In this document: piece after piece, positions 8,732 through 28,919 of the stretch
Layout of the letters: each line of letters starts with the position of its first letter
Position numbering within the stretch: position 1 is the stretch's first letter
DNA from: Methanosarcina horonobensis HB-1 = JCM 15518
GTDB taxonomy: Archaea > Halobacteriota > Methanosarcinia > Methanosarcinales > Methanosarcinaceae
Length of the DNA: 64,000 bases
Direction of reading: 5' to 3'
Assembly: GCF_000970285.1 (NCBI RefSeq)
Contig: NZ_CP009516.1
Span: forward strand, 3,017,036 to 3,081,035
Made by a program: the position numbers and the translations under genes
The notes under the pieces: model-generated
The model's database searches: none
Told to the model about the DNA's origin: nothing
Seen by the model: the letters and a program-made list of their open reading frames with translations, nothing else

Positions 8732-9784
8732 ATGAAAAAAATAGGGATTGCGATTACCGACCCGGAAGACTGGACAGCCCAGGCACTTATCAATGCAGCC
8801 GGGAAAAAAGGATATTCTCCTTTTGTCTTTGACCTCAGAAAAACAGAAGTCAGGATAGGTTCAGGAGTTTCTGAACCGGCTGCTCTTATTAAAGCCGGGA
8901 AAATCCTGCTCTCGGATCTTGACGCACTTATTGTAAGAGATGTAGGTGCAGGAGCTTTTGAAGGGGTATCTTTCAGGTTTGATACCCTGAGGGAGCTCGA
9001 GGCAGAAGGAGTTGCAGTTATAAACTCCCCGGAAGCCATCCAGAATGCGGCAAACAAGTACCATGCTTCTTACCTTCTGGCAAAAGCCGGGCTCCCTTTG
9101 CCTGAAACCATAGCTGTTCAGAGTGTAGATGCAGCCTTAAAAGCAGTATCAAGATTCGGGGATTCCGTCATAAAACCTGTTTTTGGTTATAAGGGAAAAG
9201 ATATTGCAAGGGTGAAGAACCAAGAGATCCAATTTTCAGACCGAAAAAACGAGCATGTTTCTGTAGAAGAAACTCTTGAAAAACTGCTCGAAGAAAGGGG
9301 AATGCTGTATATCCAGGAGTTTATAGAAAATCCAGGGAGGGACATACGAGCTTTTATTGTCGGAGGCGTTGCCATAGGCGCAATTTACCGAAAAGCTGCT
9401 GCAGGTTCCTGGGTAAATAACCTGAGCCAGGGAGGAAGTTCGGGTAGGTGTGTACTTACCGATAAGCAGAAAGAAATTGCCGAAAAAGCTGCCCTTGCAG
9501 TGGGTGCAACATTCGCGGGTGTTGATATTATAGAAGGTTCTGAAGGTATAAAAGGTCCTGAAGGTATAAAAGGTCCTGAAGGTATAAAAGGTCCTGAAGG
9601 TATAGAAGGTTCTAACGGTCGGGCTGAATACAAAAATAAACAGGCGGAAAGCCAGAAAAATGAAAACGGGCAGGGACCCAGGATACTTGAGGTCAATGGA
9701 ACGCCTTCAGGAAAAGGAATTTTTGATGCATGGGGCATAAATCCTGCAGATTATATTCTGGAATACCTTCAAAATATGTTATGA
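8732..9784 (+). CDS. RimK-type ATP-grasp alpha-L-glutamate ligase (candidate MptN)
   Basis: 350 residues. The N-terminal domain (about 1-100) contains the VRDVGAG and [29 protein letters not shown] segments typical of RimK/CofF/MptN enzymes. The ATP-grasp core has [40 protein letters not shown] and the metal-binding [11 protein letters not shown]. The family joins glutamate to proteins or cofactors using ATP. In Methanosarcina the expected member is MptN, which adds glutamate to tetrahydromethanopterin to form tetrahydrosarcinapterin, but CofF and RimK are alternatives. Between DII and ILEVNG there is a low-complexity insert of about 45 residues, with G-x-x collagen-like repeats and a polar [15 protein letters not shown] tail. 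Confidence 0.85.
9533..9613 (+). repeat. In-frame 18-bp minisatellite inside the ATP-grasp gene
   Basis: A 9-bp half unit (9533-9541) is followed by four 18-bp units: 9542-9559, 9560-9577, 9578-9595 and 9596-9613. The first three are identical (GAAGGTATAAAAGGTCCT, encoding EGIKGP) and the fourth differs at three positions. Unit length is a multiple of three, so copy-number change keeps the frame. Confidence 0.95.
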
Positions 9785-11772: not shown

Positions 11773-11825
11773 CTTCTATTTATTATCCAGAATACCCGGG
11801 AAGAAATGCTTCCCGGAAAGCCATC

Positions 11826-24729: not shown

Positions 24730-26604
24730 ATGAAATTGACGGTGTTTGAGAAAAGCATTGACCCTGCGACCCAGAGCATGCTGGAGAAAGCAGAAAACGA
24801 AGGTATAGAGACTGTATGGGACAGGTATGAAAAGCAACTTCCTCAGTGCAGTTTTGGACAACTGGGGATTTGTTGCAGGAACTGCAATATGGGTCCCTGC
24901 AGGATAGATCCCTTCGGTGAAGGGGCTGATAAAGGGATATGCGGCGCGACTGCAGATATTATTGTTGCTCGAAATCTCTTAAGGATGATTGCCGCAGGAG
25001 CGGCCGCCCACTCTGACCATGCAAGGGATGCGGTGTTAACCTTTAAGAAAATGAGCGAAGGAGAAGCTGGAAGCTATGGGATAAAAGGCGAAGCAAAACT
25101 GTTCTCCCTTGCCTCGGAATACGGGATCCTTGCAGAAGGAAAAAGCCGTGAAGAAGTGGCAGGCGAACTTGCAAATGCGTTGCTTACGGAGTTTGGAAAA
25201 CAGAATGGGCCTCTTTTATGCACAAGGCGGGCGCCCGGATCAAGGCGCAGACTCTGGGCAGAGCTCGGGATAGAACCCAGAGGAATTGACCGGGAAATTG
25301 TAGAATGTATGCACAGAACCCATATGGGAGTGGACAATGATGCAACCCATATCCTGCTGCATGGGCTGCGTACAGGGCTTTCGGACGGTTGGGGAGGTTC
25401 CATGATTGCAACCGATGTCCAGGATATTCTCTTCGGGACTCCGGAGCCTAAGAAAAGCACTGTAAATCTTGGAGTGCTTTCCCCTGATAAAGTAAATGTA
25501 ATTGTCCATGGGCATGAACCAATCCTTTCAGAAATGATTGTGGAAACTGCGGAAGACCCCGAACTTCTTGGACTTGCAAAGGAGAAAGGAGCAGCCGGAA
25601 TCAATGTTGCTGGAATCTGTTGTACCGGAAACGAAACCCTGATGCGTCACGGGACACCCATAGCAGGCACCTTCCTCCAGCAGGAACTAGCAGTAATTAC
25701 AGGGGCTGTGGAAGCTATGGTTGTGGATGTCCAGTGCATTATGCCTTCTCTTGGAAGCCTTACTGGCTGCTATCATACAAAATTCATATCCACATCTCCA
25801 AAAGCCGATTTCCCCGGAACTTTGAGAATGGAATTCCATGAAGAGAAGGCTTATGAAACTGCAAAAGAGATTGTAAAAACAGCTGTAGAAAACTTCCCAA
25901 ACAGGAATCTCGAAAAGGTAAATATCCCGGAAGAAAAGCAGGAATGTATGGTTGGTTTCAGCGCGGAAGCAATCCTTAAAGCTCTTGGCGGAAGTCCTGC
26001 CCCTCTTATTGAAGCGATCGCCGGAGGCGCAGTGAAAGGAATCGGAGCAGTTGTGGGATGCAATAACGTAAAGATCCAGCACAATTACGGGCATGTGAAC
26101 CTCGTAAAAGAGCTGATTAGAAATAATGTCCTGGTAGTGACTACAGGCTGCAATGCAATTGCATGCGCCGAAGCCGGGCTCCTTGTGCCTGAAGCCGCTG
26201 TTCTGGCAGGAAACGGACTTAAAGGTATCTGCGAAGCTCTTGACATTCCTCCTGTCCTGCATATGGGTTCCTGTGTTGATATTAGCCGCATCCTGGTGCT
26301 TGCCTCGGCAATTGCAAACAGCCTGGGAGTGGATATAAGCGACCTCCCGGCTGCCGGCGCAGCCCCTGAATGGATGAGCGAAAAAGCCGTGAGTATAGGT
26401 GCTTATGTTGTTTCTTCGGGAGTGTTCACCGTACTCGGAACGGTTCCACCTGTCCTTGGCAGCCAGGCAGTTACATCCCTTCTGACAAAAGGTCTGGACG
26501 GCGTTATTGGTGCAAGCTTTGCAGTTGAGCCTGATCCTTTCAAAGCTGCAGACATGATGCTTGAACGTATTGAAGGAAAAAGAAAAGCACTGGGCTTGAA
26601 ATAA
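24730..26604 (+). CDS. cooS: Monofunctional Ni-carbon monoxide dehydrogenase catalytic subunit
   Basis: 624 residues, the standard CooS length, oxidising CO to CO2. Cluster B/D cysteines are present at C40, C48, C49, C52, C57 and C71 in the CSFGQLGICCRNCNMGPC segment. C-cluster ligands are H262 (GHEP), C297/C298 (GICCTGNE), C336 (VQCIMPS), C444 (VGCNN), C474 (TTGCNA) and C515 (MGSCVD), with the conserved K552 in MSEKAVSIG. All ligands are present, so it should be active. It is the homodimeric bacterial-type CODH, not the acetyl-CoA decarbonylase/synthase alpha subunit. cooF follows after 15 nt. Confidence 0.97.
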   Translation: MKLTVFEKSIDPATQSMLEKAENEGIETVWDRYEKQLPQCSFGQLGICCRNCNMGPCRIDPFGEGADKGICGATADIIVARNLLRMIAAGAAAHSDHARDAVLTFKKMSEGEAGSYGIKGEAKLFSLASEYGILAEGKSREEVAGELANALLTEFGKQNGPLLCTRRAPGSRRRLWAELGIEPRGIDREIVECMHRTHMGVDNDATHILLHGLRTGLSDGWGGSMIATDVQDILFGTPEPKKSTVNLGVLSPDKVNVIVHGHEPILSEMIVETAEDPELLGLAKEKGAAGINVAGICCTGNETLMRHGTPIAGTFLQQELAVITGAVEAMVVDVQCIMPSLGSLTGCYHTKFISTSPKADFPGTLRMEFHEEKAYETAKEIVKTAVENFPNRNLEKVNIPEEKQECMVGFSAEAILKALGGSPAPLIEAIAGGAVKGIGAVVGCNNVKIQHNYGHVNLVKELIRNNVLVVTTGCNAIACAEAGLLVPEAAVLAGNGLKGICEALDIPPVLHMGSCVDISRILVLASAIANSLGVDISDLPAAGAAPEWMSEKAVSIGAYVVSSGVFTVLGTVPPVLGSQAVTSLLTKGLDGVIGASFAVEPDPFKAADMMLERIEGKRKALGLK

Positions 26605-26619
26605 GGGAGGTAACTCATA

Positions 26620-27162
26620 ATGAAAGATGTGATTATCCGGCCTGAACTCTGCATGGGCTGCCGCTCCTGCGAGGTTGCTTGCGCTGTTTCCCATTCAAAG
26701 AGCAAAAACCTATTTTCAGCTTTAGGAGAAGATCCAGCCCCGAAAAAACGCATTTCTGTAGAGTATATGCCTGCCATTGAAGCCTCAGTGCCGATTACCT
26801 GCCGCCACTGCGAGGATGCACCCTGTGTTTCGGTTTGCCCCACAAAAGCTCTTTCGAAAGATACAGCTACCGGTACTGTAAACCACAATCTTGAGCGTTG
26901 CGTGGACTGCTGGACCTGTTCTATGGTCTGCACCCGTTTTTCTTCTCTGTACCAGTTAATTCTTGCTTCAGGATGCTGGACCTCTTCCATGGCTAACAAT
27001 TACGGAGTAATTGACAGGCGCACCGAAGAGGGAACCGTGGTAAGATGTGACCTGTGTGAGGGCAGGGAATTACCCGCCTGCGTGGAGGCATGCCCTACAC
27101 ATGCTCTTGTGTTTTTTGAGGTAGAAAGGCGTCAGGAAGCAAATTCATTTAGCTTCTCCTGA
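26620..27162 (+). CDS. cooF: CooF-like 4Fe-4S ferredoxin partner of CODH, with internal duplication
   Basis: 180 residues with four 4Fe-4S cysteine sets: CMGCRSCEVAC (11-21), CRHCEDAPCVSVCP (61-74), CVDCWTCSMVC (94-104) and CDLCEG..LPACVEACP (143-159). It should accept electrons from CooS. After the third set there is a 22-residue insertion. The segment GCWTSSMANN (118-127) repeats DCWTCSMVCT (96-105) but has lost its cysteines. The DNA shows the same 66-nt offset (26908 and 26974). Homologues of this type normally run from the third cysteine set directly into a YGVI/FGVI segment. Four cysteines of set three remain, so it may still function. Confidence 0.9.
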   Translation: MKDVIIRPELCMGCRSCEVACAVSHSKSKNLFSALGEDPAPKKRISVEYMPAIEASVPITCRHCEDAPCVSVCPTKALSKDTATGTVNHNLERCVDCWTCSMVCTRFSSLYQLILASGCWTSSMANNYGVIDRRTEEGTVVRCDLCEGRELPACVEACPTHALVFFEVERRQEANSFSFS

Positions 27163-27512: not shown

Positions 27513-28169
27513 TTATAGTCCAGGAGGAATCAGCACTTTATTGATTCCATGAATAACACCATTGCTTGCAATAATGTCAGGTTCGACAACGTTTGCGTTT
27601 CCGATGATTATTTCCTCACCTGTGATGTTTACAGGAATCATCTCGGATTGCACGGTAGTAAGCAACTGCCCGTCTTCAAGGTCCGATGCCATATATTCTC
27701 CCTCTACGACATGGTAAGTCAGCATAACGTTCAGGTCCTGATTGTCCTCACTGAGATTATTAAGTGTGCCTTCCGGAAGGGCATCAAAGGCTTCATTGGT
27801 AGGAGCAAAGACGGTATATGTCCCTTCGTTCAGGGTGTCTTCAAGCCCTGCATCCCTTACGATTGAAGCAAATGTAGTGTATCCTGCAGCCTCTGCAGTC
27901 TCAACAATTGTCTGGTTGTCTCCTCCGGTTTCGTTTTCACCAAGGGCTGGTTCTTCCTCACCCGGAATTATTCCTTCTTCCCCTCCAATAGGAGATTCCT
28001 CTTCCTGACCAGGTATTGCCCCTTCACCAGTCTCATTGTCAATAATGCTTGTCTCTTCTTCGCCCGCATCTTCACCTGCTGGTTCTTCTGCACAACCGGA
28101 AACGAAAAGCATTCCTGCTAAAAGCAACACTATCAGAAATCCAAGTTTCTTAATACTTTTTCCCCCCAT
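27513..28169 (-). CDS. Fasciclin (FAS1)-domain lipoprotein
   Basis: 218 residues from the ATG at 28167-28169; an in-frame TTG lies two codons upstream. A signal peptide ends in the lipobox FVSGC, so the mature protein is lipid-anchored. A low-complexity acidic linker (GEEE/PGEEE repeats, about 30-90) precedes one FAS1 domain (about 90-215) with TFASIVRDAGLEDTLN....TVFAPTNEAFDALP, the H-box (TYHVVEG) and NGVIHGINKVLIPP. FAS1 domains mediate adhesion and protein-protein contacts. The gene converges with cooSF but is separated by a terminator. Confidence 0.92.
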   Translation of the reverse strand: MGGKSIKKLGFLIVLLLAGMLFVSGCAEEPAGEDAGEEETSIIDNETGEGAIPGQEEESPIGGEEGIIPGEEEPALGENETGGDNQTIVETAEAAGYTTFASIVRDAGLEDTLNEGTYTVFAPTNEAFDALPEGTLNNLSEDNQDLNVMLTYHVVEGEYMASDLEDGQLLTTVQSEMIPVNITGEEIIIGNANVVEPDIIASNGVIHGINKVLIPPGL

Positions 28170-28919
28170 ATACAATTAAAAGATATACTCTATGACGTAT
28201 TTTTCATATCACATTATATGCTCTTTTTATATAATCTTATCTGTTTTTGGAAAAATGTTTCTTTTTAAAAAAACATCTATTTAAAAATAGTTTCTATTAA
28301 AAAATCTACTGGATATTCTCAAAAAAGATATATCCCATATACTGGCATTTCTTATCCAAATGGAGGTAGCCTGTAAACTCTCTGAAGCTGAATTATGATC
28401 CTCTCATTTAGATTATATTTGCAGATAAATCTCCAATCTGGCTTATTCATTAGAGCATCTTTTGATAGTCCTTATCAAGCTAATCGTTAAGTTGTAGAAA
28501 GAATTTTTCAGATTAAAACTAGTAGCTGTCCCCAGTTCGTAAGAAACTTATCATGTTTTCATATGAGTTTTTACCTGAGGAAAAGTAAGGTCTGAAAATA
28601 ATGATCTTATTACTTTCCGGGTGCAAAACACTACTAACGACGTTTTCTTAGAATATCAAACAGTTCTTCTGAATTGATGAGAATTACTCCTTTTGATGCA
28701 TTTGAGAGATTTATAGAACAACGAGTTTTAGCAAAAAGCTAGGAGAAAGTTCCTTCCAGAGGGAGGAAGTAGACTGATTGAACCTGTCATCTGATTGAAC
28801 CTGTCATTTCTCCTGCAAGTCAGAAGAAACATAAAACATTGTTAATACTTGCAGATATTAGCCTGATCAGACACATAAGGCAGGATTCAGGAGATGTATA
28901 AAGTGTGTAAGCTTCAAAG
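28170..28919. other. Intergenic region, about 750 nt
   Basis: AT-rich. A 16-nt phrase (TGATTGAACCTGTCAT) occurs twice, in near-tandem, around 28775-28808. Short frames read in several phases hint at a decayed gene, but I cannot name one. No RNA gene was recognised. Confidence 0.35.

Follow-up and report, generated by a model that had tools for sequence, protein, structure and literature searches.

The window, a 64,000-nucleotide stretch of the Methanosarcina horonobensis genome, carries a cooS-cooF pair (Table 1) in which cooF starts 15 nt downstream of cooS. The window CooS matches TIGR01702 at 724.8 bits against a cut-off of 478, and CooF is a polyferredoxin whose 16 cluster cysteines (four motifs, four clusters) are invariant in 57 of 57 aligned CooF rows. 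Its best NCBIfam match is HydN (NF007658), yet the 99.9 bits obtained lie far under the curated cut-off of 260. No fdhA or aldehyde oxidoreductase partner is encoded in the operon, the next sizeable frame past cooF (27513-28175) lying on the opposite strand, and a search of genome G000 at E 1e-30 returned no FdhA match. A 198-codon open frame on the minus strand (26403-26999), antisense to the cooS-cooF junction, is probably a by-product of codon usage.

Table 1. Features of the cooS-cooF pair (window positions) and of the insertless operons compared with it (locus positions)
Feature	Position	Strand	Basis
cooS, anaerobic CO dehydrogenase catalytic subunit, 624 aa	24730..26604	+	TIGR01702, Pfam Prismane
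cooF, polyferredoxin, four cysteine motifs, 180 aa	26620..27162	+	ORF; 16 cluster cysteines
Cluster motif III CVDCWTCSMVC, first copy	26899..26931	+	frame, alignment
22-residue insert TRFSSLYQLILASGCWTSSMAN	26932..26997	+	alignment with insertless homologs; kept in 23 intact rows; boundary +/- one residue
Front 39 nt of insert, no source found	26932..26970	+	similarity not above shuffles
Back 27 nt of insert, degenerate motif III copy GCWTSSMAN, second cysteine only	26971..26997	+	shuffles; nhmmer
19-nt repeat, copy one	26908..26926	+	repeat search
19-nt repeat, copy two	26974..26992	+	repeat search
CooF C-terminal end, 17 residues, lacking the helix FSGIKRAEAALKLARGM that insertless relatives have	27109..27159	+	tail comparison
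cooS-cooF-fdhA-hycB-like operons, insertless Methanosarcina and sister genus	L138:3553-6737, L137:2409-5434, L139:2333-5374		

A repeat search of the window recovered, exactly as first described, two stretches within cooF that agree at 17 of 19 bases with a spacing of 66 nt, and the reading frame and the cysteine loss in the second motif copy were likewise as the original prediction had given them. The frame runs from CVDCWTCSMVC through TRFSSLYQLILASGCWTSSMAN to NYGVI. The cooF pair is one of 11 places in the 64-kb window where a 19-mer recurs with at least 17 of 19 bases within 19-200 nt (182 spacings tested), a level that no 19-mer repeat reached in ten triplet-shuffled versions of the window. 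Further short direct repeats (17/19 within 200 nt) lie at window positions 819, 9529, 11824-11825, 18174, 47776, 49539, and 52826, and the one at 9529 has spacings of 36, 54, and 72 nt, which are multiples of 18 nt. Alignment with insertless homologs bears out the claim that CooF, encoded next to CooS, gained 22 residues directly behind cluster motif III: the insert occupies CooF residues 105-126, between C104 and the NYGVI block of the insertless relatives. The description of the event as a 66-nt duplication does not hold, because under half of the 66 nt is a recognisable copy of motif III; that copy covers about 27-33 nt and forms the end part of the insert, while 66 nt is the spacing of the repeat and the net length of the insert.

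The CooF alignment across Methanosarcina that the original prediction had proposed was carried out. By protein search, CooF was detected in 27 of 30 Methanosarcina genomes, and G008, G009, and G010 (completeness 75, 92, and 60, respectively) gave no CooF match at E 1e-20. The insert is present in 24 of the 30 genomes and cooF is insertless in three (G002, G024, and G025). The alignment itself contained 23 intact insert rows, four insertless rows (those three genomes and G030 from a sister genus), and 53 further loci (L005-L057); the 22 extra residues occur in 23/23 intact insert rows and are missing from the other 57, the sister-genus row and all 53 further loci included. Kept outside the alignment were L102 (broken frame), L112 (the second locus of G023), L001-L004 (the same genomes again), and L058-L080, and the insert was also found in L112/L140, in the broken L102, and in L001-L004. 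The G023 assembly has two cooS-cooF loci (L092 and L112), with the insert in both. Presence in 24 of 30 genomes rules out a recent strain-level duplication, and the notion of the insert as a recent difference between strains gives way to that of a single origin.

In a CooS tree of 31 rows (omitting L114, L115, L132, and the outgroup L019, in which CooS is short or missing, and the duplicate L006), all 22 insert rows fell into one clade (support 100/97) with the insertless G025 as its sister (100/98). A CooF tree of 34 rows, calculated with the insert cut out, united all 24 insert rows (100/99); here the five near insertless rows formed a separate group (87/83), and the placement of G025 differs from that in the CooS tree. 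The stem of the insert clade is 0.37 long in the CooF tree versus 0.045 in the CooS tree. As judged from these topologies, the insert had a single origin.

The original prediction would have been refuted by a segment that is old and unrelated to the first motif copy. Old it is, but over its final 9-11 residues, the only ones that are a recognisable copy of motif III, it is related to that copy. Motif III of insertless proteins reads CIGCWTCSMVCNYGVI, and the pattern at the end of the insert is GCW[TSN][SA]SM followed by two more residues. When the back 27 nt were compared with insertless motif III, the score was reached by 0/500 DNA shuffles in each of four rows tested, and the match of the back part by 0/300 profile shuffles; a 33-nt profile of the 23 rows found insertless cooF at E ∼1.5e-6 to 1.6e-6 (nhmmer). 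For the full 22 residues the best register is −11 (reached by 0/400 shuffles with the near five rows and by 2/400 with all rows), and this register is owed to the back part. Over 30 nt, the copy is closer to insertless cooF (the best of five insertless references being taken) than to its own first copy in 23/23 rows. It was thus the first copy that altered (IG to VD) once the duplication had taken place, and the second that kept the older letters while losing its cysteines.

The front of the insert behaves differently from the back. Against insertless cooF, the score of the front 39 nt was reached by 285, 107, 323, and 337 of 500 shuffles for L081, L090, L098, and L089, respectively, and that of the consensus by 464 of 500; a front profile run against 19 loci and the window with cooF masked gave nothing clearly above shuffles (4/30 as good). 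The front 13 residues gave a weak result against all 58 insertless rows (11/300 shuffles as good), and against the near five insertless rows 266/300 shuffles were as good. A full 66-nt tandem duplication is thus not demonstrated, the front 39 nt being no better than shuffles; the front could be the remainder of a tandem 66-nt duplicate that has diverged past recognition, or the motif copy could have been joined to foreign sequence. An internal duplication of the cluster motif, with a second copy that lost its cysteines, is supported.

At nine positions of the 22-residue insert (R, F, L, Y, G, C, W, S, and M), the residue is identical in 23/23 rows. Pairwise dN/dS was lowest in motif III (0.09); it was 0.19 in both upstream regions examined, 0.31 over 11 downstream codons, and ∼0.33 in the insert (253 pairs per region, the pairs being non-independent). 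Being well under 1, the value for the insert indicates purifying selection. One could envision that the 66 nt are cut from the message by RNA splicing or skipped by ribosome bypass and so are absent from the protein, and the clean position of the insert between C104 and the NYGVI block, together with the short direct repeat, would suit such a process; however, the frame is open, the length is always 66 nt in intact rows, and both the amino-acid conservation and the dN/dS speak for a translated segment, which makes removal exceedingly improbable. The cysteine retained in the second copy (residue 119, in GCW) might serve cluster III as an additional ligand or as a switch. This cysteine is among the positions identical in all insert rows, and the fourth cysteine of the copy survives in L085, L086, L088, and L089, but the first-copy motif III has all four of its ligands in every row, the cysteines left in the copy would not suffice to hold a separate cluster, and the conserved GCW may be a matter of packing. 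We consider such a role quite improbable.

The insertless proteins are encoded in a different neighbourhood. In G024, G025, and G030, the operon consists of cooS-cooF followed by genes for a 679-682 aa protein, a 157-172 aa HycB-like polyferredoxin, and a further iron-sulfur protein, and a cooS-cooF-fdhA-hycB-like operon is also present in G002. The large protein of G025 matches TIGR01591 (formate dehydrogenase alpha) at 806.6 bits (cut-off 666). In a search of L001-L080 and L113-L140 (L006 is apparently the same genome as G030), fdhA was found behind cooF in 12 of the 53 further loci aligned above (L005-L011, L013, L019, L020, L023, and L024) and in L136-L139, and five more FdhA matches at ∼40% identity came from L064, L066, and L068-L070; among the 24 insert loci with flanks (L113-L135 and L140), none has fdhA behind cooF. 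Genome-wide, a close FdhA (75-100%) is confined to three of the 30 Methanosarcina genomes, exactly the insertless ones, and a distant FdhA (49-51%) occurs in G025 and in three insert genomes, G027, G028, and G029. Because the outgroups share the operon arrangement, the simpler explanation is that the insert lineage lost fdhA. One genus is thus split between an insert CooF without adjacent fdhA and an insertless CooF in a cooS-cooF-fdhA operon, and the location of the insert on the same branch as the fdhA loss hints at a change of electron partner. The insertless operons could possibly encode a CO-driven CO2 reductase that makes formate.

A third difference lies at the C terminus. The near insertless CooF proteins continue for 29-32 residues past motif IV with the pattern SG.KR...ALK.A.G, and the tail of the G025 protein is modelled as a helix (residues 146-164). 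A helix-like tail is found in 0/23 insert rows, in which the tail has 8 residues in 17 rows, 17 residues in four, and 22 residues in two; in the window CooF, the 17 residues after motif IV are unrelated in sequence to the helix. Tails also occur on CooF-like proteins without visible fdhA, and other relatives have a short tail and no insert, so we do not claim a correlation between tail and fdhA over distant relatives (flanks of ∼3 kb; automatic parsing excludes L011, L014, L015, L017, L021-L024, L034, and L056).

HycB3 and HycB4 of hydrogen-dependent CO2 reductase (HDCR; PDB 7qv7) are, together with 9mqx, the best or near-best PDB sequence matches, and the G025 tail matches HycB4 at 29.1 bits over residues 113-163, reaching chain residue 207 of 210. 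The insertless (G025) model superimposes nearly end to end both on AorA (PDB 8c0z), which belongs to the nanowire of tungsten aldehyde oxidoreductase (Z 13.6, 157 residues, rmsd 3.1), and on HycB4 (Z 12.3, 160 residues, rmsd 4.2). According to PMC10413684, C-terminal helices polymerise the AorA and HDCR filaments, and clusters FS3 and FS4 form the AorA filament core. Insertless CooF thus shares with HycB4 a C-terminal stretch and has an fdhA partner encoded beside it, whereas the window CooF has neither, and CooS, not a hydrogenase, is presumed to supply its electrons; compared with AorA, the enzyme partner is another one and the filament-driving helix is missing. With the CooF of other CODH operons the window protein has in common four motifs of the CxxCxxCxxxC kind and a gene directly behind cooS, but those proteins lack the 22-residue insert, and the window CooF lacks the C-terminal helix. 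The AlphaFold model of the insert CooF has a mean pLDDT of 63.6 (<50 for residues 108-134), and its Foldseek matches have TM-scores of ∼0.4.

These observations can be joined in the following history. In the Methanosarcina ancestor, CooF would have passed electrons from CooS to FdhA and a second, HycB-like polyferredoxin of the same operon. Such an assembly would resemble HDCR, except that CooS would stand where the hydrogenase is. Most of the genus descends from a branch on which the fdhA-hycB module disappeared, and on that same branch CooF lost its C-terminal helix and acquired the 22 residues behind motif III, of which nearly half copy that motif. Most likely the insert would fold as a short hairpin over the motif III face, capping or reshaping the side that once faced the lost partner, although with the insert modelled at a pLDDT of <50 neither the hairpin nor its position is established. 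In this manner, a CooF that formed chains or was bound to a partner would have come to carry electrons away from CooS on its own, to a different acceptor. We favour this release of CooF from a CODH-formate dehydrogenase assembly, with its acceptor side reshaped for a new acceptor, at a probability that falls a little short of even.

The bearing on the acceptor side comes from a comparison of the two subunits: between the insert and near insertless groups, six CooF columns and zero CooS columns are fixed differently, and three changes on CooF and its operon fall on one branch, for which reason the insert was read as acceptor-side reshaping. If electron transfer has shifted, the loss of fdhA, the loss of the helix, and the lack of any change fixed in CooS point to the acceptor side and not to CooS. 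Because the three changes share one branch, a statistical test of their link is impossible. An insert that tightens or tunes the docking of CooF to CooS would be in keeping with the adjacency of the two genes and with the accessible text of a review (PMC4652020), in which Rhodospirillum rubrum CooF is tightly bound to CODH. However, with no differing CooS position, nothing suggests that this subunit has co-adapted, and we regard docking as improbable.

The main rival, and a serious one, is slow decay, in which the partner was lost, selection on CooF weakened, and the insert, an accident that did no harm, proved difficult to lose afterwards and has no specific job. The CooF/CooS distance ratio is 2.2 inside the insert clade and 1.4 among the near insertless rows, the dN/dS of the insert exceeds that of the upstream regions, and four of the 24 insert genomes have a damaged cooS or cooF, an observation that decay and rewiring explain equally well. 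The cooS of G029 lacks its first 330 residues, that of G020 has a frame shift near residue 513, that of G003 has an internal gap with a contig end near, and in G016 both genes are broken; some of this damage may be assembly faults. By locus, the 5' half is missing in L115, L127 has a frame shift, L114 an internal gap, and L102/L132 multiple breaks. Decay would not, however, be expected to leave an insert of 22 residues in all intact rows with nine positions invariant, a dN/dS well below 1, and 16 of 16 cluster cysteines retained. We take decay to be a substantial possibility, though on balance doubtful.

The preferred reading, the release of CooF to a new acceptor, can be carried one step further. 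The ancestor may have possessed a CO-dependent CO2 reductase, built of CooS, two polyferredoxins, and a formate dehydrogenase in an HDCR-like filament, that was dismantled in most Methanosarcina, the partial motif duplication and the helix loss having turned a wire subunit into a stand-alone electron outlet. This fuller account is tentative, and we would call it unlikely as a whole. The ancestral enzyme may persist in G002, G024, G025, the sister-genus G030, and Methanothrix relatives. We know of no experiment in which CooF from any of these species was seen to form a filament or to bind FdhA. Rother is said to have published a genetic study of the M. acetivorans CooS genes in 2007.

CODH-CooF pairs and the HDCR and AorA filaments are already known. 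In the accessible text of PMC4652020, the coupling of CO oxidation to F420 reduction in M. acetivorans is called unclear, and the stand-alone CODHs of that species are described only as aiding CO removal. A literature search, mostly without subscription papers, found no description of the insert or of a CooS-CooF-FdhA unit in Methanosarcinaceae, and neither is mentioned in the accessible portions of PMC4652020, PMC13056359, PMC6344411, PMC10413684, PMC13079737, and PMC4543118. The comparison suggests that basal relatives have a CODH-formate dehydrogenase assembly for which we found no description, and the split within the genus makes the question of the acceptor testable through the exchange of one small gene. 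In the G025 operon, the third iron-sulfur gene (L138:6075-6260) opens with low-complexity repeat units resembling MKEEMQEG.
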